Of a DNA stretch of 64,000 nucleotides, positions 14,141 through 62,719 are shown in pieces. How positions within the stretch are numbered: the first letter of the stretch is position 1; every line of letters begins with the position of its first letter. A model generated the notes under the pieces. It worked only from the letters and a program-made list of their open reading frames with translations, was not told where the DNA came from and ran no database searches. Both the position numbers and the translations under genes were made by a program. The DNA lies in NCBI GenBank assembly GCA_029959295.1, contig JASCOH010000010.1, positions 37,080 through 101,079 on the forward strand, written 5' to 3'. Source of the stretch: Flavobacteriaceae bacterium PS02334. Its GTDB lineage: Bacteria > Bacteroidota > Bacteroidia > Flavobacteriales > Flavobacteriaceae.

Positions 14141-14890
14141 ATGGAAAAATTCAACGACTACCTTCCCCAAACGATCTCAGGGAAAAACGTGCTGGTAACA
14201 GGGGGCACAACTGGAATAGGCCGGGCGACGGCACTGCTGCTATCCAGTCTCGGGGCCAACGTTATTGTCGCTGGGCTCCAAAGGGAGCATCTTTTAGAAG
14301 CCCTCCACGATATCAAGCCGGTCGCCGCGGGAACAGTCCACGGCGTGCTGGCCGATCTGGCGACAGAAGGCGGCATCGGCAAGCTCTTTGCCGACACGGC
14401 CGCAAGTTTTGGAAAGCTCGACATACTGATAAATAATGCAGCGCTTCCCTATGGCACTACCGGGGAGGGAGACTATCAAGAGTGGCAGCGGGTAGTTTCT
14501 ACGAACCTGCTTGCCTATATGGCCTGCTGTGCGGAAGCCATAAAGCTAATGCCCGGCGGAGGCCACATCGTCAATATAGGCTCTATGAGCGCCGACGTTC
14601 GGGAAGAAACAGGTTCCGTTTATGTTGCAACAAAATCCGGAGTCCAAGGATTCTCCGAATCCCTCCGAAAATCTGCAAACAAGCAAGGTATCAAGGTAAC
14701 GCTCATAGAGCCTGGAGCTGTCGACACCGACATGCAGCCAGAGTCCGGACCAGAAAAATTGAAAAAAGTAAAGGCCATGGAAATGCTCGCTGCAGACGAC
14801 ATAGCCATGAGCGTGCTGTACTGCCTTTCACAGCCGAAGCGCTGCGACATCGTGGAGCTGAAAATCAGGCCGCACCTGCAGCTTATCTAG
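14141..14890 (+). CDS. Short-chain dehydrogenase/reductase (SDR)
   Basis: A classical SDR of 249 residues. The Rossmann cofactor motif TGGTTGIG lies at residues 20-27, NNA at 98-100, the catalytic Ser in NIGSMSA (about 148-150), and the YxxxK pair at Tyr161 and Lys165. The position after beta-2 carries AGLQREH rather than an acidic residue, which fits NADP(H) better than NAD(H). The closing segment lacks a membrane helix, so it is a soluble oxidoreductase of unknown substrate. The start gives a complete first beta-strand (KNVLVTGG). The next gene begins 33 nt downstream on the same strand, so the two may be cotranscribed. Confidence 0.9.
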   Translation: MEKFNDYLPQTISGKNVLVTGGTTGIGRATALLLSSLGANVIVAGLQREHLLEALHDIKPVAAGTVHGVLADLATEGGIGKLFADTAASFGKLDILINNAALPYGTTGEGDYQEWQRVVSTNLLAYMACCAEAIKLMPGGGHIVNIGSMSADVREETGSVYVATKSGVQGFSESLRKSANKQGIKVTLIEPGAVDTDMQPESGPEKLKKVKAMEMLAADDIAMSVLYCLSQPKRCDIVELKIRPHLQLI

Positions 14891-14923
14891 GCGCCTATAA
14901 TATACCAACTAAATAGAATAATT

Positions 14924-17152
14924 ATGAAGCCTATTGCAGCATGGACAGTATCCTCACAGGACAGTCTTGAAAACGGTGACCTGTTGATGGAAAAAAATAT
15001 AGGAGGATATCCCCTAAAGGTTATTTTCGACGGCTTCTCGCTGTGGTTCGTGTCACAATGGACGGCTGGGGGGCGCGTTGCCTTCCGAGGCGGGCTTCCC
15101 AGCAACGAGAGGCTGGAATTGAAGCATAGCCGCAACACTCCAGGTGGCGCCAATTTTACGCTTGAAGGCAGCAGCGCCAGCACAAAAATAACACTGCGGT
15201 TTCCCGATCCTGGAAAGCCCATATTTAGATATACCGTCTCCCTCGCCCCGTCTCTGGACCTTCTCGTACCTTACACGCCCAGGGATATTATGCCCTTATT
15301 TAATGGAAACGGAAGGACACAGAATACGGACGGGATTGTGCATGCAAGCCAGGTCGGGATGCGCTCAGGCCTGCTGTTCTTTACGCTGGAGCAGCCTGCA
15401 GGCGGTTCGGTGTTTTATTTCCAAAACCTTACGGCGCTTAACAAGTTCTGTGAAGCGACCGGTACTTCGGCTGGCGACCTTGTCGGCGGCTCCTGGCCCG
15501 AAATCGGCATGAAACTTCCTCCCACCGAGCCTGGCAGGCCGCTGAAAAAAAACGAGGAATATATAATTTCTGACGCGTTTGTAAAACTCAGTGACGACCT
15601 GCCCGCCAATAATTACGAAATGTCCGGGCAATTTTTAAATCATCTCGCCGACATTTACGAAATGCTTCCCCTGCCGCCGACCAGATACCACGACTGGCCG
15701 GACATCCTCCACAGGGGACTTGAAGGGCTGTCAGAGCACAAGGGCTGCTGGAAATTTGCTGACGGCCGTTCTTACCTAAATGCCTATGTCAGCGACTATA
15801 AGACGCCTCCAGAAAGCATGGTCCAGCTCGCAGTGCTTCTGCCTCTTACAGATTTTGACCAGTGGAGTGGCGAAGACCACCACCCCGTAATCGAGACGCT
15901 GCGCAATGGCCTCGAAAATTTTTTCGACCCGCAGCTGGGCACGGTCGTACGCTGGCTGCCCGCATTACAAAAGAACCTTGACTGGAGCGAGGAGCAGAAG
16001 GAGCCGGAAGTCATGGATTCCTGGTACCTGCACCATCCGCTTCTCAATCTCTCTAGATTGGCGCTGAAAGGTGACGCAAAAGCGGAAAAATTATTACTGG
16101 ATTCCATTGGATATGTCATCAAGGTAGCCCGCCATTTTAAATATCGATGGCCTGTCTTCTACAAGATGGCCACGCTGGAAGTGCTGAAAGAAGAGACGGC
16201 TCCGGGACAGGGCGGCGAAAAAGACGTTCCGGGCGCCTATGCGCACCTGATGCTGCAGACCTGGAAGCTGACAGGCAAGAAGGTATATCTTGAGGAAGCC
16301 GTCAAGGCTGCAAAAAAATTGGACGGGCTGGGGCTGGACATTTTCTATCAGGCCAACAATACTGCTTTTTCCGCTGGAGCATTGCTTAGGCTTTATAAAG
16401 AAACCGGCGATAAGCTGTTCCTTGACCTCAGCCATCTCTGCATCGCTGCGGTCATGAAAAATGTACAGCTTTGGGAATGCAATTACGGAAATGCAAAACA
16501 TTATCCAACTTTTTTTGCAGTCTACCCGCTTAAAGACGCGCCATATACGGCAGCCTACGAGGAACAGGAAGTTTTTTCAGCATTTCATGAATTTTTGCAG
16601 GAGGCCGAAGGTGTTGAAGAGGTGCTTCCTTCCGTAAGGCTGCTGCTTGCAGAATGCCTCCGCAATATCATCAACAGGGTCGCCTACTATTATCCGCCAA
16701 TGTTGCCCAGGGAGGTCATTGCGGAGGGCAAGGATGTGAAGACTGGGGAAATCGATCCGAATTTGTGGATAGCGCTTGAAGACCTGCAGGATGGCTGGAA
16801 CAGGTCGGGGCAGGTCGGACAGGAAGTATATGGTGCCGGAGTCGCATTCGGTATCGTGCCGCGCCAGTACCATAAAGTCCCGCAGGGCGGTTTCATGCTA
16901 TTTGCGGACTATCCCGCCGGCAATTTCAGGAGAAGGAAGAATTCGCTTGCTTTCCAGCTGAAAGGCGGCAGTTCGATGCATTGCAGAATAGCGATATTGC
17001 CTCTCGAGAAAGGAATGACGATGCCTGAAGTAAGGATACAAGCTGGAAGATCGGCAAAAGACAGGAAGGAAATAGCCCCCCTGTCAGGCATAAAGGGAAA
17101 ACGTGCAGAATACAGCATCAACGGAAACTGCTCGGTAAAAATAACCTGGTAG
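14924..17152 (+). CDS. Large hypothetical protein, possible alpha-helical-barrel carbohydrate-active fold
   Basis: This 742-residue cytosolic protein (no signal peptide) has no motif I can assign with certainty. The first 230 residues look beta-rich. Residues about 240-640 are a series of helical hairpins rich in aromatic and acidic residues (for example LNAYVSDYKTPPESMVQL, VMDSWYLHHPLLNLSRLA and DVPGAYAHLMLQTWKLTGK). This recalls the (alpha/alpha)6 barrels of six-hairpin glycosidases. The C-terminal 100 residues are beta-rich again. That beta-barrel-beta layout is known from glycoside hydrolases and polysaccharide lyases, but I see no diagnostic catalytic signature, so the enzyme class is inference. 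It lies 33 nt downstream of the SDR gene, consistent with one transcript. Confidence 0.6.
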   Translation: MKPIAAWTVSSQDSLENGDLLMEKNIGGYPLKVIFDGFSLWFVSQWTAGGRVAFRGGLPSNERLELKHSRNTPGGANFTLEGSSASTKITLRFPDPGKPIFRYTVSLAPSLDLLVPYTPRDIMPLFNGNGRTQNTDGIVHASQVGMRSGLLFFTLEQPAGGSVFYFQNLTALNKFCEATGTSAGDLVGGSWPEIGMKLPPTEPGRPLKKNEEYIISDAFVKLSDDLPANNYEMSGQFLNHLADIYEMLPLPPTRYHDWPDILHRGLEGLSEHKGCWKFADGRSYLNAYVSDYKTPPESMVQLAVLLPLTDFDQWSGEDHHPVIETLRNGLENFFDPQLGTVVRWLPALQKNLDWSEEQKEPEVMDSWYLHHPLLNLSRLALKGDAKAEKLLLDSIGYVIKVARHFKYRWPVFYKMATLEVLKEETAPGQGGEKDVPGAYAHLMLQTWKLTGKKVYLEEAVKAAKKLDGLGLDIFYQANNTAFSAGALLRLYKETGDKLFLDLSHLCIAAVMKNVQLWECNYGNAKHYPTFFAVYPLKDAPYTAAYEEQEVFSAFHEFLQEAEGVEEVLPSVRLLLAECLRNIINRVAYYYPPMLPREVIAEGKDVKTGEIDPNLWIALEDLQDGWNRSGQVGQEVYGAGVAFGIVPRQYHKVPQGGFMLFADYPAGNFRRRKNSLAFQLKGGSSMHCRIAILPLEKGMTMPEVRIQAGRSAKDRKEIAPLSGIKGKRAEYSINGNCSVKITW

Positions 17153-51723: not shown

Positions 51724-52518
51724 TTACAGCTCTACGTCTAAATTTCGAGGGTCAAAACAACGAACCGCAATACCCATTCTGCGGAACAGTAATATTTTAA
51801 CCCTTTTTCGAACCGCCTCATAGTTCGGATTGACTATTATGACTTCCCGAATTGTTTTGCTGCCTGCAAACGTCCCGTTTAGCAGAAGGCTGAGTTCTGC
51901 ATCCAGCGGATCGAGCGAAAGACCATAAAGGATAATACTGTCAGCTTCTTTCAGGAATTGAAGTGTTGCAAAGTGGTCATAGCCTACTTTCTCATTTTCG
52001 GAATAGCTACGGTAGTTTTCCATAGAAGTTTCAGACGGCAAATAAATATTTTCATACGCCTCGATGCTGCCGTGAATATGAAAAACTTTAGCACTTTCAG
52101 TATCCTTATACTTTTCTTTAATTAAGCGGTCGGCTTCAGCATCTATTACCGTATCCCAGTTTGTCGAGACAAAACCAAATAAACTACTTGGCTCTGCAAA
52201 AACAAATTTTTCCAACATGTCCTCAAATTCCTTTCTGGGCTTTAGCAATCCAGTTCTTTGGGCATGTTTGAGGGAATCGCAGATGACGTTCTTCATTTTT
52301 TTGACTAATTCCTGCTCTTCTTTTAACTGTTCAGTACCATTAGGCAATTTAGAATACAGCCTCATGGCACATACCGATTTTACAAATAAGAAGTTGGCCG
52401 TATCTGCATCGGTTTCATCTCCACTAATCGGCCTAAAACATTTAAGCACAGGCTCCCAGGCATTTTCAACTGCTCCTGCGCCCACGAGGATCGCTATTTT
52501 AGCGTGTTTAGTTTTCAT
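51724..52518 (-). CDS. SIR2-like protein (second SIR2 of the defence island)
   Basis: A 264-residue protein of the SIR2 fold. Motifs are a nucleotide-binding start LVGAGAVENAW (residues 11-21), FVSTNWDTVID with Asn120 (the catalytic Asn of SIR2 NADases), HIHGS with His149, ILYGLSLDPLDAEL and VIIVNPN. Defence SIR2 proteins hydrolyse NAD+ to cause abortive infection. It has no zinc-ribbon and only a short insertion, and is shorter than the 60935 SIR2. It lies downstream of the DUF262 gene, separated by 223 nt, so it may be a separate unit. No partner is certain. Confidence 0.75.
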   Translation of the reverse strand: MKTKHAKIAILVGAGAVENAWEPVLKCFRPISGDETDADTANFLFVKSVCAMRLYSKLPNGTEQLKEEQELVKKMKNVICDSLKHAQRTGLLKPRKEFEDMLEKFVFAEPSSLFGFVSTNWDTVIDAEADRLIKEKYKDTESAKVFHIHGSIEAYENIYLPSETSMENYRSYSENEKVGYDHFATLQFLKEADSIILYGLSLDPLDAELSLLLNGTFAGSKTIREVIIVNPNYEAVRKRVKILLFRRMGIAVRCFDPRNLDVEL

Positions 52519-52741: not shown

Positions 52742-55249
52742 CTACTTTAATTCTTTAATAAACGGTGTGAATGCTTTTTCAAATTTTGGCAGATTAGAAA
52801 CTAAGAATGTGTTCATAGTTTCCCAGTCAGATTCATTATAAATATTAACGCCTTGATCCTCTATTTTGATGCGGCTCATTTTATTATTGGGTAGTTCTTC
52901 CCAAACTAGTATGTTTCCAAAGGACCGCTCTATTGCTTCTTTGTTTTTATATAGTTTTTTAAAATAAATTTTATTTGTCTCCTTGCTCGAATTGAGAATA
53001 GTAAGTTCAATTCTTGCATAAGTCTTAGATATTACAAAAGTGTAGGAAACCCCCGCGATACCCGCTCCAGTGCCTAACCAATGATCTTTCGTCGGATTTA
53101 CATTAGAAAACAAACTAGTATTTTCGAGCAATGGCAACAGCTGTTGCCAATACCTTTTTCTGATATTAAAACGCGTTGGTTCTAATCCGTCCTCTGTTTC
53201 GGATGCAAATTTGATAAACAATTCATCTTCCATTTCGAATAAGGACAATAGCTTTTTTAAAACACTGAATTTAGAATTGCTATCTATATTAAATTCAGCA
53301 AACCAGCCATTGGCAATCTCTTGGGCTGATCTGAAATCAGCAGCATTTCGGGTGATCTTAAAAAAATCTTGATTGTTTACTAATAGCTGGGAGTTCTTTT
53401 GGTACAGGCTTTTAATTATATACAAATACATCTGGGCAATGACCGATTCCTCAACTCTTGTGTTTTCAAAAATGAAGTATTCCAGTTTTTTATTTCTCGG
53501 GCTGTCGGCATCGAAAATATTCTGTTCCTCTGAATCGTTGCTTTCTGGAATTATTACCTCCGGGTACTCCCAGATTTTCAGGAAGCGCTCATAAATGATA
53601 TTCAAGCGCTCTTCGTAATTCGAAACGCTCCAAGCATCAAGAGATTTAAGATAGGAGTTTAGCCATAGTCTGCTGTAGTTGTAGCCCTGCTCCTTTTCGT
53701 CATTATTCATTTCTTTTTTGGCAGCAAAAGATTTGTTACCCAAGGAACCATTATTGCCAGACAGCGTAAGGTTTCCAATCGTATTGAGATACTTTTCCTT
53801 AAATAGGAAATATTCTTCTTTTGCTAGGTCGGTAATCCAATCCTCATGAGGATTTCTCGGAAAGATATGCTCAACCGTTATGTCCTCATTGTGGGTATCG
53901 ACATACTCCCTGTTATTATAATTCTCCAGCAGCTCAAACAGATAATTTCTGTTTTTGGGCTGGGTATTGTACAGGTCCTTATCCCTTAATGCGGTTTTTA
54001 AATCTTCATTGGTTGGGAATTTGGCACTGCCTTTCTTTTTCAGCAATACCTTTGCCAGAGAATCAAAGTATTCCTCTTTGTCTATTTCCGAATAAAGGCT
54101 CATAAATATCTTATTCAATGCATTGGTCGGCAATCCAACTATGAATCTTCTCCAGGCGTAGCTCTGGATCAATCGCAATATCTGGATTAAGTCATTTTTA
54201 TCCAAAAGTCCAATTTCCAAATCTTCAAAAACCTGAAGCAGGAAAGGATAAGCTACATTTATCTCCAATCGGTTAATGTATTCCAATTCTTTTCTGATGG
54301 CACTGTCAGAAACTGTCGATGGATTGATTAACTTCTTATAATGAACCGATAATGATCTTATATTTTCGAGTTCTCGATGATAGGCCTCCTGTTTTTTATT
54401 TGGATATAGGCTTTTAAACTCCGCGTATACCTTGTTTTTATTGGGTATTTTTTTGTTGCGAAGTGTGAGGTAATCCCTTAAGAACTCAGAGACTAATGAA
54501 TTTTGTTTGACAATATCCTTCGCGTTTTCTTCAATGGGACTCCAGATGTTTTCAAATATTCTGTTTTGATCCCTTGGTGGCAGATCCATCAGGATAAAGT
54601 TTCTAATCAGGTCGGACTGGGATAAATCCAAACCTGTAGAGTTCAGGCTTTCAAATATGCGCTGCGGATCATCCTTACCCCGCTCCAATGAAATCTCCAC
54701 AAAAATCAATCGGTTTAATCCTCTTAGAATTATTTCAAAATTGTATTCATTAATCACACTTCTAAAATAGTTGTAGTTCTCAATAACATTAGAATAGTGG
54801 TCAAAACTTTTCTCTGTACCCAGCATAATAGCTTTAAATGCCAGTGAGTTGGTATCGGTTTGCTTTAGTTTAAGCTTGCTCGATTCATTTTGGACATACT
54901 GATTGGTCAAAAACATATTGTAAAGGCGTTCCACATCCTGTGTCCGGCCATTTTCTTTTGCAAATCGATATAAGGCGACATACAGAATGTTGATTGTTGT
55001 CAAACGTTGCTGTCCATCGATGATAACCAGCTCTTTCACCTCATTTGTACTGTAAGTTCCCTCATGGACAAAAACGATACTGCCAATAAAATGCGTACCC
55101 CTATCTTCTGATTCAACCGCAATAATATCGTCCAGCAATTCTTTGCATTCAGCATTTTTCCAATCGTAGTTTCGCTGGTAAACAGGAATTACAAATTGTA
55201 CATTTGGTGCCTGTAAAAAATTGATTATTTGTAGTTCGTTGGCTTTCAT
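52742..55249 (-). CDS. DUF262/DUF1524 (GmrSD-like) restriction protein with a C-terminal DUF4268
   Basis: An 835-residue fusion. The DUF262 (GmrS/ParB-like) part has VYQRNYDWKNAE (residues 23-34), VIIDGQQRLTT (75-85) and FESLNSTGLDLSQSDLIRN (199-217). The DUF1524 HNH nuclease has EDITVEHIFPRNP with His461 and IGNLTLSGNN with Asn493. The C-terminal 130 residues resemble DUF4268 (RKRYWQQLLPLLEN, ARIELTIL, IYNESDWETMNTFL). GmrSD-type proteins are NTP-dependent nucleases against modified phage DNA (type IV restriction). The GmrS and GmrD homologies are fused here. The gene starts 103 nt after the six-gene operon and ends 223 nt before the second SIR2-like gene. Confidence 0.9.
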   Translation of the reverse strand: MKANELQIINFLQAPNVQFVIPVYQRNYDWKNAECKELLDDIIAVESEDRGTHFIGSIVFVHEGTYSTNEVKELVIIDGQQRLTTINILYVALYRFAKENGRTQDVERLYNMFLTNQYVQNESSKLKLKQTDTNSLAFKAIMLGTEKSFDHYSNVIENYNYFRSVINEYNFEIILRGLNRLIFVEISLERGKDDPQRIFESLNSTGLDLSQSDLIRNFILMDLPPRDQNRIFENIWSPIEENAKDIVKQNSLVSEFLRDYLTLRNKKIPNKNKVYAEFKSLYPNKKQEAYHRELENIRSLSVHYKKLINPSTVSDSAIRKELEYINRLEINVAYPFLLQVFEDLEIGLLDKNDLIQILRLIQSYAWRRFIVGLPTNALNKIFMSLYSEIDKEEYFDSLAKVLLKKKGSAKFPTNEDLKTALRDKDLYNTQPKNRNYLFELLENYNNREYVDTHNEDITVEHIFPRNPHEDWITDLAKEEYFLFKEKYLNTIGNLTLSGNNGSLGNKSFAAKKEMNNDEKEQGYNYSRLWLNSYLKSLDAWSVSNYEERLNIIYERFLKIWEYPEVIIPESNDSEEQNIFDADSPRNKKLEYFIFENTRVEESVIAQMYLYIIKSLYQKNSQLLVNNQDFFKITRNAADFRSAQEIANGWFAEFNIDSNSKFSVLKKLLSLFEMEDELFIKFASETEDGLEPTRFNIRKRYWQQLLPLLENTSLFSNVNPTKDHWLGTGAGIAGVSYTFVISKTYARIELTILNSSKETNKIYFKKLYKNKEAIERSFGNILVWEELPNNKMSRIKIEDQGVNIYNESDWETMNTFLVSNLPKFEKAFTPFIKELK

Positions 55250-55352
55250 AATGTGTATTTACCTATTATTGGTTTTAATTCCCTTGCAAATTCTATTTCC
55301 AGCATTGCTATCAAATCTTTCATTTCTTCTTCAAAAACTATGTAATTTAAGG

Positions 55353-55784
55353 TTAGATTCCAAACTCATTCGGCTTATACCAATGGAATAATTGCATGCC
55401 TGCAGTATCTTTATTTCTAGAATACCCTAAATGGGTTACCAATCTTAAATGAAAATCTTTCTTTACTTTATCTACATACAAAGTTTTTGAATTAATATCT
55501 AGACAAGGCTTACAGGCCGGACTATTTCTAGGAGATTTTGAATCTTTGAATTCTAGATACTTGCTCCGTAAGATTGTTGCGTTTGTAATTTCATCATCAA
55601 TTGAAAACCAATACAATACTGGTCTGTTTTTAATTCTTCTGAATTCACTAAATGCTTCATTATCTTCTTTACATGTTGTGATATTTGAGTTTTTAATATA
55701 TACTTCCCTAAACAATTCAGACGTAATCACAACTGGTTTTCCTTCTACAAACCTTTCGAGGTTCCTTTCAACATTTTCAAGCAT
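55353..55784 (-). CDS. GIY-YIG-like nuclease (last gene of the defence operon)
   Basis: A 143-residue protein. The C-terminal half is GIY-YIG-like: RPVLYWFSIDDE (residues 54-65), TLYVDKVKKDFHLRLVTHLG (101-120), and MQLFHWYK (130-137). In the classical motif the middle reads LYVGK; here an Asp replaces the Gly (Asp105), and the first motif has LYWF instead of the usual (G)hYhh. The Arg (Arg114) is retained. The frame could start at 55865, but the ATG at 55784 overlaps the end of the upstream small gene by 8 nt, in the manner of coupled genes. It may act as the nuclease effector of the operon, or may be inactive. Confidence 0.6.
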   Translation of the reverse strand: MLENVERNLERFVEGKPVVITSELFREVYIKNSNITTCKEDNEAFSEFRRIKNRPVLYWFSIDDEITNATILRSKYLEFKDSKSPRNSPACKPCLDINSKTLYVDKVKKDFHLRLVTHLGYSRNKDTAGMQLFHWYKPNEFGI

Positions 55785-56046
55785 TTTCTTGAAAACGATA
55801 TTTAATTTTGCTTTCCTTTTTATGTTTCCTATCAGCTCTAACTTGTGGCAATAAAAACAATTCATTTCTGCTACCTAAGTCTCTTAAAATTGCTCTTAAC
55901 GGCAAACCATCTCGATGGTCTTTTTTAAAAAAGCCTTTTTCAATAAGTAGTGCCACTAAGTCTTTAGGTTTTGCATCAATTAATTTTTCTTTTTCAAGAA
56001 ATGATTGAATGACATAACCCATCTTTATGATTTCTGAGTGTTGCAT
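55777..56046 (-). CDS. Small protein of unknown function (89 aa) in the defence operon
   Basis: An 89-residue basic protein (IIKMGYVIQSFLEKEKLI, VALLIEKGFFKKDHRDGLPL, then a lysine-rich tail). A helix-turn-helix-like pattern can be suspected around residues 15-60, but I cannot name the family. It begins 5 nt after the HNH gene and overlaps the GIY-YIG-like gene by 8 nt, so it belongs to the same transcript. Such a protein could be a DNA-binding or adaptor subunit for the nuclease. Confidence 0.5.
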   Translation of the reverse strand: MQHSEIIKMGYVIQSFLEKEKLIDAKPKDLVALLIEKGFFKKDHRDGLPLRAILRDLGSRNELFLLPQVRADRKHKKESKIKYRFQENA

Positions 56047-56051
56047 ATATT

Positions 56052-57026
56052 CTATATCAGTTTTAACTGTTTTGCAATGTCTTGCGTAAACTTTGCCATT
56101 GGTCTTTTATGAATATCCTTGACATTTGTATAATTACCAACTAATAACCTTTCTGCCATTGGAATTTTGTTTGGGTATAATCTTTTGAAAGAGTTTCTTA
56201 AAGACTTTAAATATGTCTCATTATATATAATTGATTTTAGAACAAGCTCTTCAGCTAAATCTTTTTGTGTCGAATATATTCCCTGTATGTCAAAACTTTT
56301 GTTAAAACTTTTATTTAATGGATCATCAAATAGTATTACAAGACTATCTTTATTTCCATTAACTCTGTAAGAAACAATTGATCTTTTATCTAATCGAAAT
56401 TTGAAGGGAGAATCCTTTAAATCATTATAATCATCAGAATATATATTAAAGTCTACAGCCCTTGCTTGTTTCTTTCCATTACAAGGACCACAAACTGGCA
56501 ATAGATTGAAAAATGAGATACTAAAACATGGATACTCAGATTTAGGTAAAAAATGATCAACTTGAAATTTGGCTGATTTACCTCCTTTATAAGATCTTAC
56601 ACTAACTGCTAATTGAGAATTACAATATAGACAAGCTTTTAAGCCAGTTGACTCAAAGTAGCCTGCATATAAATTATCTCTTAACTTTGAATAACCCATT
56701 CTAATCAGTAATTCATTTTTAAATTCCTTATTATGTCTTGCTAAATTTTCTCCGGTAATAATAGCATCAAATTCATCTTTTAAATCCTTAAGCCCTGCCG
56801 GTTCAGTCTTAACGATGTTTTCAAATTCACCTATTAATTTATTCAAATAATTTATTTCAGTTTGTTGTAATACAATCGGAATTCTAGGATTATTTTTACC
56901 TCCAAATTTATCTGGTGTATTTCTAAAATCTATAACAGAATGTTTTGCTAAAGCAATTAATGAATCAATCTCAATAGAATTTGTTTCTAAAATTTTAGAA
57001 ATAATATTTTGATTAATTGATATCAT
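56052..57026 (-). CDS. HNH endonuclease (PtuB-like)
   Basis: A 324-residue HNH nuclease. The zinc cysteines are C132-x2-C135 (CLYCNSQ) and C179-x2-C182 (VCGPCNGKKQ). Between them are the catalytic QVDHFLPKSEYP (Asp157, His158) and Asn174 in SFFNLLPV. This layout matches the HNH module of Septu PtuB. The gene overlaps the AAA ATPase gene by 4 nt (ATGA), the signature arrangement of the PtuA-PtuB pair. The N-terminal 120 residues are helical and probably contact the ATPase. In the known system the nuclease degrades phage or host DNA or RNA once the ATPase is released. Confidence 0.82.
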   Translation of the reverse strand: MISINQNIISKILETNSIEIDSLIALAKHSVIDFRNTPDKFGGKNNPRIPIVLQQTEINYLNKLIGEFENIVKTEPAGLKDLKDEFDAIITGENLARHNKEFKNELLIRMGYSKLRDNLYAGYFESTGLKACLYCNSQLAVSVRSYKGGKSAKFQVDHFLPKSEYPCFSISFFNLLPVCGPCNGKKQARAVDFNIYSDDYNDLKDSPFKFRLDKRSIVSYRVNGNKDSLVILFDDPLNKSFNKSFDIQGIYSTQKDLAEELVLKSIIYNETYLKSLRNSFKRLYPNKIPMAERLLVGNYTNVKDIHKRPMAKFTQDIAKQLKLI

Positions 57027-59230
57027 TGATTTTTTCGTTTTAATTCTTGAAGTCTTTCTATTTCTTCATCAATCTTCTTTTCATTATAAAACTTGCTTAG
57101 ATAAAGTTCTTTAAGATCATATTTTAACAATGGCTCTCCAATAATTTGAATAAATTCTTCAGCTAAAATAGGATTCCAATTTAATTCTGGCTTTTCATTA
57201 TCGACTATATTACCTTTACTTTCATCGTAAGTTAAAAATTTAAGCAAGTCTTTAATTTTTAGCTTGGTATACTCCCCCATAAATCCATTTTCTAGAAAAA
57301 AATCATTTGCTAATAAATCGTGGACATTAGCGGCATAAGTTTCTTCATCTATATTATTATTTTGAATATTTCCTTTATCTAGCTTTAAAATATTAGATTT
57401 TGGGATATCAGAAAGAATAAAAGGTGAATGCGTTAAAAAAATAATATTGTATTTATAATTAAAACCTTTAAGATAATTTATTGATTTAATCAATTCATAA
57501 ATAAATATTCTTTGAAATTCAGGATGAAAATATAGCTCTATTTCATCTAAAACGACATTAAAATATTTATAAGAAAGCCCATCTTCTATATCCATAGAAT
57601 GAATAGAGTCAAGATTAATTAAATGATATATAACAGAATTAATACTATAAATTATCTGTTTCTCACCAGAACTTAAGTCCTTAAAATAACCTTCATTTTT
57701 AAACTCAAAATCAACCTCAAAAAAAGATGGGGGCAAATAATTAGTTAAACTATGCTTTCTATAACTAAAACCATCATTATAGGCTAAATCATTCATTCCA
57801 GGATCTAATTCCCAAAGTTTATTATTTCGCTTAAGTTCTTCATTTAAAAGAGTTTTTCTTTTTTTATTAACTTTATCTGCAATCCCAGTTTTTGAAGTTG
57901 TCGAAAGGTTATAAGTAATATTACTCTCATCTTTTATATTATATAAATCATAAAATAAAAAATTAAGAGCTTGTCTAATTTTAAAAGTACTATGTGTAAA
58001 ATCTTTAGCTAAAGTTTCGAAGTAACTTTCTATAGTTTCTTCCTTCGCATTTGAGCGAAACACACTATTTTTATAAGCCTTAAACTGTGGATATTTTTTA
58101 ACTACATCTTCTACTTTCTTTAAAATATATTCTTTACAAATTCTTTTAATTTTACTGTTTGAAAAGGACACATCTACAAAGTTATTTTCTGGATAAAATG
58201 CTTTTATTAATAATCGAAAATAATCGTGCTTATATATATTTTTGTTTTTCGCAGTAAACTCTAAATAAATTGATTTACTATCAATGTGAATAAAATCAAG
58301 TGCTCCTGGTTTTAAATTATTTTCATCTAGAACAGTGAATTTTGAAAAATCTAATTTTAAAATTATTTTTTTTACAACTTTATTATTAACTAAACTTCGT
58401 AAACTCTCTTCATCTATCTGTCCTTCTTCTAGTTCTATAAAGACATTTCCTAACAATCTAGATTTAGATAAATATGTAAGTCGATTTATATCGATTATAC
58501 CTTCGGTCCGCATTGGATTTAAAACGATTGGAGTTTGATATCCATCATTTTTATGGAAAATAGACTTTAACCAAATTCCTGTTTCATTTGTATTCAAACC
58601 ATATAATGAATAGTTTGCCAAAATTGAATAAAAAAATGAACCAGATAAAAATTCATCCCTTGAATCAAGAAATAGTTCCTGTTTAGATTCAAATTTGAAT
58701 AAAATCTCATTTGCCTCTGTAGAAGGAGTATATGTAAAAGATATACTATAAAATCTCTTATTATTCTTAATTATTCCAAATATCTTATTATCAATCAAAA
58801 AATAAATCTCACAATTGAATAATTTAAAACTTTCTAATTCAGTGTCTAAACGATTTTGATCCTTCTCAGAAAGGCTGTGAGATTCTTTGAAAATTTTTAT
58901 ATTTATTAAATCTAAATGTTCAGCTAAGCAAAAAACAAAAAGACTAAAAATCTCTACAATAGTACTTTTACCGCTACCATTTCTTCCAACAACTGCTGAA
59001 ACATTGATGTTATCTCCATAAAGGCTTTTTGGAATACTTGAAATATGATTGATCTGTAATACATTTTCTTTTTTTTCATCAGTTTTAAAATCATAATCTT
59101 GATAAAACTTATAAAAATCACCTTGATTTAAGTTCTTTAAAAATTGTTTATCACAGTCGTTTGAAGGACGTATTGCTAATAATTTAAATCCGTTATACTT
59201 AATTGATTCACTCATAATATTAGTTTTCAT
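57023..59230 (-). CDS. AAA ATPase of the SMC/ABC type (PtuA-like)
   Basis: A 735-residue ATPase with Walker A VVGRNGSGKSTI (residues 82-90), an ABC-like signature LSSGEKQIIYS, Walker B VVLDEIELYFHPEFQRI and the switch histidine in FLTHSPFILSD. The insert between Walker A and the signature contains long helical segments. In Septu the ATPase forms oligomers with the HNH subunit and senses low nucleotide levels. An alternative ATG lies at 59218. The gene begins 15 nt after HerA, so the three genes are likely to be one transcript. Confidence 0.85.
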   Translation of the reverse strand: MKTNIMSESIKYNGFKLLAIRPSNDCDKQFLKNLNQGDFYKFYQDYDFKTDEKKENVLQINHISSIPKSLYGDNINVSAVVGRNGSGKSTIVEIFSLFVFCLAEHLDLINIKIFKESHSLSEKDQNRLDTELESFKLFNCEIYFLIDNKIFGIIKNNKRFYSISFTYTPSTEANEILFKFESKQELFLDSRDEFLSGSFFYSILANYSLYGLNTNETGIWLKSIFHKNDGYQTPIVLNPMRTEGIIDINRLTYLSKSRLLGNVFIELEEGQIDEESLRSLVNNKVVKKIILKLDFSKFTVLDENNLKPGALDFIHIDSKSIYLEFTAKNKNIYKHDYFRLLIKAFYPENNFVDVSFSNSKIKRICKEYILKKVEDVVKKYPQFKAYKNSVFRSNAKEETIESYFETLAKDFTHSTFKIRQALNFLFYDLYNIKDESNITYNLSTTSKTGIADKVNKKRKTLLNEELKRNNKLWELDPGMNDLAYNDGFSYRKHSLTNYLPPSFFEVDFEFKNEGYFKDLSSGEKQIIYSINSVIYHLINLDSIHSMDIEDGLSYKYFNVVLDEIELYFHPEFQRIFIYELIKSINYLKGFNYKYNIIFLTHSPFILSDIPKSNILKLDKGNIQNNNIDEETYAANVHDLLANDFFLENGFMGEYTKLKIKDLLKFLTYDESKGNIVDNEKPELNWNPILAEEFIQIIGEPLLKYDLKELYLSKFYNEKKIDEEIERLQELKRKNQ

Positions 59231-59245
59231 GTAGATGTAGATATT

Positions 59246-60922
59246 TTATACTCTAGATTGTTTCCTTAAAGCTTCCACTGCCAAATCTAAGTTCGTACTA
59301 TCTTTTAATTTTGACCACTCATCCCAAAAATCAATTGTTGCACTTTTCGGTTTAATTGTAGGCTTATCAATTTGAACTCGACTAGGAAGTAATGAAGCGT
59401 CTCCAACGATTAATGCTTCACCAATATCTAAAATCGGTAGCAAATTTGCAAAATCTCCTAAATTATCTGGAAATAATCGTTTGATTACATTTTGATCATC
59501 CGGATTTGTAAGTCGCATTGCTATAAAATTTCCACATTGGCTTAAAATTGTTTTACTGACATCTGAAGGACGTTGACTTATAACGACCAAAGAAACTCCA
59601 TATTTTCTTCCTTCTTTACTTATCCTTTCAAAACTCTGTAAACCTTTTTCATCTATTGAGCCTTTAGGATTCGCAGGTAAATATAAATGCGCTTCGTCGC
59701 AAAAAATAGAAATTGGATGTCTATTACTTTCGTCTGTCCATTGTTGAATAGAAAAAACCAATCGTGCAAGTAAACCTGTTATTAAAGGTAAAATATCTGA
59801 TGGAACTTCTGAAAAGTCAATAATTTTAATTCCACTTCCTTTCCCAAAATCCAATAATTTTTTAATCAAAACACCAAACCAATCATATTCCAACAGAATC
59901 GGATCTTCATTAAATAAAAAGTTTAATCTTTTATCTTCTTTTTTACTTGACAAACGTTGAACAAATCTTGTTAATTTACCAAATAATGGACCTTGTTTTT
60001 CTGTACCTGCTCTTGCTCCTTCAATCATTTTCTGATCTTCATCATCTAATTCTTGAAGTAATTGAGCAATGGAAAAAGGAATCGGGCTTTCAACAGTAAA
60101 ATTGTTTAAGACTTCTTCTTTGCCTTCAGACTCTAATTTGTCTTTTTTTAATTTTATAATTAAATCAAAAAGAGCTCTTGACTGATTAGGTGCATTGCTA
60201 TCACTTCTATCTAATAATAAAGATTCAATTTCTTCATATGATAAAAGCCAATAGGGAAGAAAAATATTATCAGGATTAGAACAATTATCTGATGGACCCG
60301 CAATTTTTAAAAGTGAAACATTATCTAAGTCACTTAATGGAGTGTACTCTCCATGCAAATCAAGAACGATACTGTTGACTGATTTTAATTTTGATGCACT
60401 TTCAAGAACATTTGCAACAGTCCATGACTTACCTGAACCAGTTCCTCCAACGATAACAGCGTGTCTTTGAAAGAATTTGTTACCATCCAGGTTTACATCT
60501 GATTCTTCTGCAATAGTATAAGTTCCAACCTTAAGTGGATTTTCACTGCTAGAAGAAATTGTCTTCATAAATTCGGTTAATTCAGCTCCAATAAGTAACG
60601 AGCAGTCTGAATTAATACTGGGAACAGTGTTTAAAGTTCTTTTAAAAAGATTTTTCGCTGTTCCTTGTGTTTCTATAAAAGTACCAACCAAGTTTACCTT
60701 TATTACATTTTCAATGATAAAATCAGCATCCTCACTTTCATCAATTTTTTCAGATAGAGCTTTTCTTAGAATCTTCGAAATTAATCCAATAATCTTTTCG
60801 CCTGTTTTAGTTGAGCGAATTTGGATTATTTGATTAACCTGTACACTATTTAATAAATCTTCATTATCTACTTTAACAGTAACATTTCCCGTGTCTACAC
60901 TTTGAACTTTTCCTAATTGCAT
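59246..60922 (-). CDS. herA: HerA-type hexameric ATPase
   Basis: A 558-residue HerA ATPase. The N-terminal HAS-barrel-like part (residues 1-60) is followed by Walker A VGGTGSGKSW (159-167), Walker B SIFCDEAHLYLP, the sensor VVISQRPSDVSK and the arginine-finger segment AMRLTNPDDQNVIKR. HerA proteins are DNA-translocating or remodelling hexamers. In the Sir2-HerA defence system (also called Nezha) HerA assembles with SIR2 into a large complex needed for NAD+ depletion. It is encoded 12 nt after SIR2. The last 40 residues are hydrophilic. Confidence 0.9.
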   Translation of the reverse strand: MQLGKVQSVDTGNVTVKVDNEDLLNSVQVNQIIQIRSTKTGEKIIGLISKILRKALSEKIDESEDADFIIENVIKVNLVGTFIETQGTAKNLFKRTLNTVPSINSDCSLLIGAELTEFMKTISSSSENPLKVGTYTIAEESDVNLDGNKFFQRHAVIVGGTGSGKSWTVANVLESASKLKSVNSIVLDLHGEYTPLSDLDNVSLLKIAGPSDNCSNPDNIFLPYWLLSYEEIESLLLDRSDSNAPNQSRALFDLIIKLKKDKLESEGKEEVLNNFTVESPIPFSIAQLLQELDDEDQKMIEGARAGTEKQGPLFGKLTRFVQRLSSKKEDKRLNFLFNEDPILLEYDWFGVLIKKLLDFGKGSGIKIIDFSEVPSDILPLITGLLARLVFSIQQWTDESNRHPISIFCDEAHLYLPANPKGSIDEKGLQSFERISKEGRKYGVSLVVISQRPSDVSKTILSQCGNFIAMRLTNPDDQNVIKRLFPDNLGDFANLLPILDIGEALIVGDASLLPSRVQIDKPTIKPKSATIDFWDEWSKLKDSTNLDLAVEALRKQSRV

Positions 60923-60934
60923 GATTTTAGTTTT

Positions 60935-61888
60935 TTATATTATTTCGACAAAATTATTTAAAGACCAATAATTGCCTTCAAGAATGAATGCCTGTTTATC
61001 CAAATTTCTCTCTTGGATAGTTACTTTAGTACAATCCCCTTCGTGTTCTTCTAACAAAACATATTTTTCAGCTCCTTCTATTTCTTTCAAACAAGTTTCA
61101 GAAATTGATTTTGTAATTATTACTATTGGAATACCCTTTTTGATTTTTGCTCTAATTCTTGGCGTAAGATGTTCATCATTAAATCCGAAACCAACAACAA
61201 GAAAACTACTAGCAGATGTAATGAATGAATCTGATTTCTGAATCAGTTCTCGATAGGGACTTTTATAGGTCTCTTGATATTTATTTTTTCCTGGACAAAT
61301 TATCTGTGAAATCGAGTTTTCAGTATTATTTTGTAAATAGCGAATATCTCCACCTACTTCAAACCAATTGAGCGAACCATGAACTTTTACAATATTCACA
61401 TTGTTTTTATTAGAAAATAAGTTTTCATCAAACACAGAAAGATCTTTTCCTAAAAAACCATCCGTAAAAGCAATATCATGAAACGAAAGTACATTTTCAA
61501 TAATTCGATCATAGTTGGTTGTGATGATATTTGTTACTTTAGGATGTGCATCACTAATCTTTTGCACCAATTTCTTTATTCCTATAAAATCAGCAGTGCT
61601 TCCTGACAAAAGCTTTTGTAGCACTTCTTTGTCTACTTTTGAAATAGCTTCCCAAATTACATTTCTTATTTGCGGAATCAGTTCAATATATTTTTCTTTT
61701 CCCAGCTCCACTTCTAGATTATCACAATCTTTATCAAATTCCGGCACTTTTTGCTTAATGATTTCATTTAAGGCCCACATGCTTGGCAAACCAAATGGAA
61801 CTGTAGCTCCTGAACCCCAAATTATTACGGGAGGATTTTTTAGGTAATTCTGAATAATCGTAAAAATTCTCTCTTTGTCTTTTTCCAT
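60935..61888 (-). CDS. SIR2-family NADase (partner of HerA)
   Basis: A 317-residue SIR2 protein. The glycine-rich start is GSGATVPFGLPSM (residues 25-37). The NAD site has TTNYDRIIENV (123-133, Asn125, Asp127) and VHGSLNWF with catalytic His170. VVGFGFNDEHLTPR contributes the cofactor end. There is a helical insert between these (residues 40-115). The family hydrolyses NAD+ upon infection. In the Sir2-HerA system, HerA gates that activity. It is the first gene of the operon. Intact Asn and His suggest an active enzyme. Confidence 0.88.
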   Translation of the reverse strand: MEKDKERIFTIIQNYLKNPPVIIWGSGATVPFGLPSMWALNEIIKQKVPEFDKDCDNLEVELGKEKYIELIPQIRNVIWEAISKVDKEVLQKLLSGSTADFIGIKKLVQKISDAHPKVTNIITTNYDRIIENVLSFHDIAFTDGFLGKDLSVFDENLFSNKNNVNIVKVHGSLNWFEVGGDIRYLQNNTENSISQIICPGKNKYQETYKSPYRELIQKSDSFITSASSFLVVGFGFNDEHLTPRIRAKIKKGIPIVIITKSISETCLKEIEGAEKYVLLEEHEGDCTKVTIQERNLDKQAFILEGNYWSLNNFVEII

Positions 61889-61958
61889 AATTTGGAGTTT
61901 TCTTTATTATCAACCGACAATAGCTATTATTTTCAAGGTACTTATTTCAATAATTTAC

Positions 61959-62065: not shown

Positions 62066-62719
62066 TTAAATTATCGTAATAAAAAAAATAAAAACAGGAG
62101 GCAAAATTATTATCAGCGAGTACCATCCGTAACATTCCCACCAGTATTGACGATTGATTCGTTTCACATCCTTTTTTTTCAGTTTGTCAAAATAAGACAA
62201 TTTGGTCAGCATGAATTTTTCATAGTCAATTTTATTATGGTTCTGGTAAAGTGCCAAAATAGTTTGATATTCTATGGAAAGATTCTCACAAAAAATTAAT
62301 ATTTCATTCTCGGTTGCCGTGGAATTTAATGTTTTGAAAGTGCGCAACTTATTATACAGTGTGCTGAGAGCCAAACTGCAGTCATGGAAATTTTTAGCAC
62401 GTAATTTATAATCTTGGCTGTTTTCAAATTGTGCAACCACTAATTGGATGATGGAAAGAGCTGTAACATAATAATTAACTAAATTTAAATTGGCGTCATC
62501 ATTCTCAATATTATATACTGCAAGCAGTCCTGCAATAATCAAATAGGCTGACAGAATATTAAAGCTAATATTCGACATATTAGAGATGGTAGTCAATCTT
62601 CTATCGGCTTGAAACCTGGCGCCCTTGGTAGACCAAATTTTATAATTTAATTCTTCTAGAAAACTTTTCTCTAAATACTCTTGTGAACCTGTAAAAATAG
62701 ATGCTATTTCTGCACTCAT
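62066..62719 (-). CDS. SLATT-domain membrane protein
   Basis: A 217-residue protein of the SLATT type (SMODS- and SLOG-associating two-transmembrane effector). A short N-terminal helical part with KIWSTKGARFQADRRLT precedes two adjacent transmembrane helices (about residues 51-70, ISFNILSAYLIIAGLLAVYN, and 81-97). A long cytosolic coiled part with FENSQDYKLRAKNFHDCSLA and LSIEYQTILALYQNHNKIDY follows, then a third helix at the C-terminus (WYSLIIILPPVFIFFITI). SLATT proteins are pore-forming effectors of nucleotide-signalling or reverse-transcriptase-linked defence. No cyclase, SLOG or RT gene is seen beside it, so it looks orphan. It is separated from SIR2 by 177 nt. Confidence 0.8.
   Translation of the reverse strand: MSAEIASIFTGSQEYLEKSFLEELNYKIWSTKGARFQADRRLTTISNMSNISFNILSAYLIIAGLLAVYNIENDDANLNLVNYYVTALSIIQLVVAQFENSQDYKLRAKNFHDCSLALSTLYNKLRTFKTLNSTATENEILIFCENLSIEYQTILALYQNHNKIDYEKFMLTKLSYFDKLKKKDVKRINRQYWWECYGWYSLIIILPPVFIFFITII

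Follow-up and report, generated by a model that had tools for sequence, protein, structure and literature searches.

Do six closely spaced genes in a defence island make up one system, or have separate systems merely been packed against one another? This question is raised by a stretch of 64,000 nucleotides from Flavobacteriaceae bacterium PS02334 (C1:37080-101079, hereafter the window), which ends where its contig ends, leaving the far side of the island unassembled, in a genome of 4.59 Mb in 69 contigs. In it, six minus-strand frames lead from a SIR2 gene through genes for a HerA ATPase, an ABC/SMC-type ATPase and an HNH nuclease to two frames called orf5 and orf6, with gaps of 12, 15, −4, 5 and −8 nt, coordinates that we reproduced from an earlier note on this DNA (Table 1). 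That note proposed a six-gene layered system in which a drop in ATP or NTP links two effectors, and offered as an alternative a composite locus with shared regulation of its parts. Our comparisons indicate that the locus very probably consists of two independent abortive-infection modules lying end to end, perhaps co-transcribed, together with gene fragments in a mosaic defence island. The two modules are separable because SIR2-HerA and ATPase-HNH each occur in other company. What had been taken for a six-gene unit thus resembles the usual crowding of genes in a defence island, if a dense case of it.

Two pairs, each found in other company

Both proteins of the first pair match the PADLOC SIR2-HerA profiles across their full length. 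The SIR2 protein carries a SIR2_2 domain with the catalytic N and H residues that mark membership, and adjacent to it, at a gap of 12 nt, lies a HerA/DUF87 protein with GGTGSGKS and DEAH motifs; these matches, together with PF13289, bear out the identity that had been assigned to the pair. An N/Y/D/H residue set is described for DSR2 and Sir2-HerA in excerpts of PMC11263360. From the 155 relatives returned by a contig scan with a HerA alignment, 80 were retained; SIR2 adjoins HerA at 79 of these loci and the remaining one begins at a contig edge. The predicted SIR2-HerA pair is intact and widespread.

Comparison of 86 HerA loci revealed that the genes around this pair change from genome to genome. 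(These are 85 distinct loci, L076 and L128 being the same Flavobacterium cheniae locus, and they include L077, with a neighbour unrecognised as SIR2, and L130, which starts at a contig end.) In Chryseobacterium piscicola (L083), which has a HerA 97% identical to that of the window, DNA identity of 89.8% spans window positions 59241-61892 only, reaching at most 5 bases beyond the pair on each side, and the gene before the pair encodes 991 aa with no match to any window query. Likewise, a 79.6% match in Flavobacterium agrisoli (L084) ends at the edges of the pair, the only other matching DNA being a 204-base stretch of an ATPase gene. In the two plasmid records inspected of the 659 with HerA matches, the annotated neighbours are not defence genes in one (Catenovulum), and in the other (Aliarcobacter) the pair has tight neighbours on both sides, a large ATPase gene of the AAA family and DUF6602.

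Close spacing is also common at these loci. With neighbouring genes called by a simple longest-ORF method, the downstream neighbour lay on the same strand within 30 nt at 27 of the 86 loci (a count that includes short, perhaps spurious frames), on the opposite strand at 18, and was absent at two. A Pfam scan of 18 of the 27 tight neighbours matched 14 at E 0.001, leaving four without a match; the families were HsdR or its N-terminus (two), HsdM, MjaI endonuclease, Abi_C, Fic, AlbA_2, reverse transcriptase, DUF6602, nucleotidyltransferase, metallo-beta-lactamase, AAA_13 and two AAA_21/15 ATPases. Since tight neighbours occur at 27 of 86 loci and those matched are of mixed families, close packing with varied genes is usual, and the 15-nt spacing between HerA and the ATPase is by itself not above background. 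On the other side of the pair, two large genes (962-1036 and 534-670 aa) closely precede SIR2-HerA at six loci (L120, L124, L143, L146, L149 and L151), an arrangement that looks like a recurrent larger cassette.

The second pair likewise retains its motifs. The ATPase has Walker A, signature, Walker B and H-loop motifs, and D157, H158 and N174 of the HNH protein are conserved, together with four Cys, in an alignment of 14 sequences; the HNH protein scores under the Pfam cut-off (17.8 of 22 bits). The two genes, which overlap by 4 nt, match both subunit profiles of PDC-M62 in PADLOC, where matches were judged by E value without a cut-off. Judged by these features the pair is intact and Septu-like. 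The Septu identity proposed earlier therefore stands in the PDC-M62 or wide sense (an ABC-ATPase with an HNH protein, Walker and H-N-H residues intact) and fails in the NCBIfam-curated sense, the scores being 37.4 of 500 bits for PtuA, 25 of 150 for PtuB and 19.2 of 52.15 for TIGR02646.

In a search of 150 relatives, HNH matches occurred in 30 genomes, including the window's own, and an ATPase search of 395 genomes, with no more than two candidates scored in each, gave at least nine genomes. The loci fetched on this side, all found without HerA as bait and leaving out one place in G212, numbered 42 (34 HNH places, six around ATPase matches, one plasmid and one viral), and 41 of them contained the ATPase-HNH pair. 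Relatives of SIR2, HerA, orf5 or orf6 accompanied none of the 41 pairs (blastp E ≤ 1e-3, stretches of 14-20 kb). A same-strand neighbour lay within 30 nt upstream of 15 of the 41 and downstream of nine, and the pair on a Bernardetia plasmid, the one record inspected of 26 plasmid records with HNH matches, had no defence neighbours.

The members of this pair may themselves exchange partners. ATPase and HNH distances correlate at 0.66 across 43 pairs, and most pairs go together. In the HNH tree, the window protein clusters with L198, L032, L033 and L034 (98*), a clade rejected by the ATPase data (approximately unbiased, AU, p 6e-5), and the HNH data reject the clade of the ATPase's nearest neighbours (p 5e-37). 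These values are to be read with the facts that the clades tested were chosen after the FastTree result, that the ATPase grouping is weakly supported (0.2-0.35), that the HNH tree has long branches and that L041 and L160, with short ATPases, were omitted. Such evidence that Septu-like ATPases and HNH proteins can swap partners is a side result of this analysis. At three loci (L036, L039 and L084, the last at 14307-16355) a second ATPase directly follows the HNH gene and is slightly nearer to the window's ATPase than the first; these ATPase-HNH-ATPase triples are possibly a three-gene Septu variant.

Encounters between the two pairs

Five other genomes of the 150 (G012, G013, G040, G068 and G083) contained matches to both HerA (E ≤ 1e-20) and HNH (E ≤ 1e-3), about 200 kb apart in one and on different contigs in four. 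Viral contigs yielded 16 HerA loci, four with a recognised SIR2, and one ATPase locus, none having both HerA and the ATPase. No title or abstract opening returned by full-text literature searches described a tandem of SIR2-HerA and Septu, and none was found in passages of PMC10121019. Neither the listed genes of 84 HerA loci nor the 41 ATPase-HNH pairs showed the six-gene order. The earlier note had held that the arrangement would be chance packing if the two halves were almost never adjacent elsewhere and were transcribed separately, and such rarity is largely what emerged (none of 41 pairs, two of 83 SIR2-HerA loci, five genomes with the two unlinked), in keeping with its composite-locus option.

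Several observations nevertheless weigh against two independent modules. Among the 83 SIR2-HerA loci with a downstream gene, the two with ATPase-HNH directly after the pair are a Fibrobacter metagenome-assembled genome (L093), at 16 nt, and Flavobacterium endophyticum (L160), at 17 nt; in F. agrisoli the ATPase-HNH pair follows with one gene between, and at L132 an ATPase match lies three genes upstream of SIR2. In C. piscicola, too, the slot after HerA is filled by an ATPase, of another family (AAA_13, at 16 nt). A crude placement model, applied post hoc to three pairs, gave P 0.019 for the two direct cases, which are the chief finding against chance alone. Finally, GC content at third codon positions (GC3) did not clearly differ between SIR2-HerA (0.192) and ATPase-HNH (0.159; z 1.9). 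At L132, the 675-aa gene before SIR2 is, we presume from a motif, DNA methyltransferase-like.

These cases might reflect a recurrent four-gene unit, expressed as a single transcript, that deploys nuclease attack together with NAD+ depletion; one activity might even sense the failure of the other. The shared order at 15-17 nt in the window, L093 and L160, the ATPase-HNH pair one gene further on in L084, the AAA_13 ATPase in the same slot in L083 and the post hoc P value of 0.019 would all fit such a unit. However, the ATPases themselves differ: that of L093 is 28-29% identical to the window's, despite a HerA that is 71% identical, whereas six ATPases without SIR2-HerA reach 33-37%, and it ranks 15th of 42 by tree distance, behind pairs without SIR2-HerA. 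The ATPase of L160 is short, at only 378 aa. Because the L093 ATPase is far more diverged than its HerA, L093 and the window look like separate assemblies. Taken with the absence of SIR2 or HerA from all 41 ATPase-HNH pairs and the conflict between the ATPase and HNH trees, these differences make a recurrent four-gene unit quite improbable. Also unlikely is a dual-effector abortive system in which a downstream ABC-type ATPase, in most cases accompanied by HNH, has repeatedly been drawn into one operon with SIR2-HerA, so that NAD+ depletion and nucleic-acid cleavage form successive barriers; on that view the pairing would have been invented several times independently, the window being one instance. 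As a side result, the SIR2-HerA/ATPase-HNH tandem is a candidate recurrent arrangement.

Gene fragments and an adjoining restriction gene

The independent-module reading also has to account for orf5 and orf6, neither of which matches a family in Pfam, PADLOC or NCBIfam. Described earlier as a small basic protein, orf5 instead aligns (34-43% identity) with five proteins of 246-260 aa over no more than their N-terminal ~78 residues, its homology stopping at window positions 55810-55822. Each of the six orf5 matches outside the window belongs to an open frame of 198-270 aa, a stand-alone 89-aa gene not being among them, and the second half of one of three scanned relatives resembles PvuRts1I-type nucleases (E 3e-4, under the Pfam cut-off).

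Intact relatives of orf6 are 187-192 aa long, L169 being the best match at 63%. The orf6 frame aligns with them from residue 2 at window position 55814, upstream of the ATG at which the earlier note began the gene, to 55359; the last 35 aligned residues continue in another frame (55359-55255, 77% identity) inside the supposed intergenic gap. There is no start codon at the homologous position, and the glycine of the family's LYVG motif (YVG/YLG in six of six aligned relatives) is Asp. The in-frame YxG...R...H...E core is incomplete, its Glu-bearing C-terminal stretch lying out of frame. The frame change could be an assembly error, which would count against decay, but such an error would still leave the lost start and the replacement of Gly by Asp. 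The GIY-YIG-like family assignment made earlier is sound, a paralogue in the same genome just passing PF01541 (22.7 of 22.6 bits, E 1.2e-4), and it is the window gene that is broken. No orf6 match was obtained in phage and plasmid collections, and an orf6-family profile gave one chance-level match (E 0.8) among solved structures. The paralogue itself (L173:9016-9591, contig C68) is an intact GIY-YIG-like gene, directly followed by one with what we take, from a motif, to be an AbiH-like start.

As orf5 homology ends where that of orf6 begins, two genes appear to have been joined, both losing parts; on these alignments, orf5 is an N-terminal gene fragment and orf6 a broken gene copy. This bears on the six-gene layered system, in which the small protein and the GIY-YIG-like protein would be working parts. 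Six open frames on one strand at close spacing are what such a system would present, but orf5 retains ~78 residues of a ~250-aa family, orf6 is without its start, motif glycine and in-frame C-terminus, and relatives of the two were seen neither next to an ATPase-HNH pair nor next to each other. With this decay, and no recurrence, a layered system with linked effectors is very improbable indeed. The limits of the set are moreover arbitrary on the right-hand side, since the same-strand run goes on past orf6 into a GmrSD gene 103 nt downstream.

That GmrSD gene is an adjoining module, outside both pairs. Compatible with two independent modules is the possibility, which we hold tentatively and consider less probable than not, that orf5 and orf6 belong with it as a restriction cassette and nuclease accessory, partly decayed. 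The original reading frame of orf6 terminates on the start codon of GmrSD, a DUF262/GmrSD pair begins 3 nt after one of six orf6 relatives (L075), and GmrSD-like genes come directly after two (L072 and L073, not L074) of the three orf5 relatives for which long flanks were fetched. At L175, the next frame presumably has a DUF262-like beginning, as judged from a motif. Conversely, no GmrSD match was found beside the intact orf6 relatives L169-L172 or the paralogue L173, and the GC3 of GmrSD is very different, at 0.409 against 0.21-0.26. Base composition as proof of separate origin was dropped, as it sets GmrSD apart but does not separate the two pairs from each other (z 1.9).

Two further proteins of the island are listed in Table 1. 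The 264-aa SIR2/AbiH-like protein is a further defence candidate, and the SLATT_5 protein also matches PADLOC profiles of RT-associated SLATT proteins.

Table 1. Features of the locus, by position in the window
Feature	Position (strand)	Length	Motifs, matches and remarks
SLATT_5 protein	62066-62719 (-)		E 1e-48; 177 nt upstream of SIR2
SIR2 gene	60935-61888 (-)	317 aa	N125-Y126-D127 and H170 present; PF13289 E 5e-13; PADLOC SIR2 PDLC04092 E 3e-170
HerA gene	59246-60922 (-)	558 aa	Walker A 159-166; DEAH 409-412; DUF87 E 2e-30; PADLOC HerA PDLC04105 E 3e-225
ABC/SMC-type ATPase (PADLOC PDC-M62A)	57023-59230 (-)	735 aa	AAA_21 E 2e-11; PDLC04737 E 1.5e-50
HNH nuclease (PDC-M62B)	56052-57026 (-)	324 aa	PDLC04743 E 9e-45
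orf5 fragment	55810-56046 (-)	~78 homologous residues	Frame open to 55777 (frame as first read 55777-56046)
orf6, broken GIY-YIG-like gene	55255-55814 (-), homology		Frame as first read 55353-55784
GmrSD/DUF4268 protein	52742-55249 (-)	835 aa	GmrSD_N E 2e-35; GmrSD_C E 4e-17; DUF4268 E 7e-36
SIR2/AbiH-like protein	51724-52518	264 aa	After GmrSD; scores under Pfam cut-offs

Putative mode of action and comparison with known systems

We propose that recombination placed an intact SIR2-HerA pair and an intact PDC-M62 ATPase-HNH pair end to end, and that two other genes, joined and then decayed, left orf5 and orf6 as their remains, with the GmrSD restriction gene following. By analogy with the known families, a SIR2 oligomer docked on a HerA hexamer would hydrolyse NAD+ on infection; the consulted sections of PMC12198126 report that a Sir2 dodecamer assembles with a HerA hexamer, and those of PMC11263360 that SIR2 proteins of such systems hydrolyse NAD+. 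Separately, the ATPase would restrain the HNH nuclease, which once triggered might cut DNA or tRNA. PtuAB reportedly cuts phage DNA, and tRNA-Tyr is the reported target of other PtuAB, which deplete or cleave it (PMC12198126, PMC11555353, PMC13096335); for Septu EcB88, mutating either the Walker-type or the H-N-H-type motif abolished defence (PMC13096335). Each pair would thus stop phage by abortive infection on its own. Given the 15-nt spacing, the two pairs may share a transcript; a promoter and terminator scan was uninformative (five terminator-like elements against 5.4 in shuffled sequence, 70 promoter-like elements against 56, sd 8). Nothing found in this analysis ties the activities of the two pairs together or supports the shared ATP or NTP signal once suggested for them. 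The locus neatly illustrates that genes packed closely in a defence island can pass for a new multi-gene system when they are in fact separate modules assembled with gene fragments.

Of known systems, the first pair is closest to the SIR2-HerA anti-phage system, solved in 8uae/8uaf and 8wld/8woc (both chains), with which it shares SIR2_2 followed by a DUF87 HerA and the same N/Y/D and H residues. In contrast to those solved chains, 8xau gives the best score of the window's HerA among solved chains, and the NCBI equivalog cut-offs are not reached (SIR2_antiphage 43 of 500 bits, HerA_antiphage 318 of 850 bits). We take 8xau to be a HerA that partners DUF4297. The remnant of orf6 finds its likeness in GIY-YIG nucleases, its family having an LYVG...R...H...E pattern, presumably the GIY-YIG core; in the window the gene is broken and its motif glycine is gone.

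For the second pair, the best match of both proteins is PDC-M62, an unpublished PADLOC PDC candidate often double-called as Septu; in one B. cereus survey, known here from parts of PMC11811056, PDC-M62 accounted for 203 of 244 Septu double calls. Compared with PDC-M62, the window pair is diverged in sequence, and its ATPase and HNH protein have different closest relatives. A Pfam scan of nine gene products gave no reverse-transcriptase match such as a retron would call for. At 735 and 324 aa, the window's proteins are longer than PtuA 8ee4 (465 aa) and the best HNH match, 9n69_F (227 aa). A profile of 14 HNH proteins weakly matches one TIGR02646 chain (E 0.009), and one of 14 ATPases matches the Ec83 ATPase 9e8z (E 8e-14) and PtuA 8ee4 (E 6e-11). 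With Septu PtuA-PtuB and retron PtuAB the pair shares its order, an ABC-type ATPase followed by an HNH protein.

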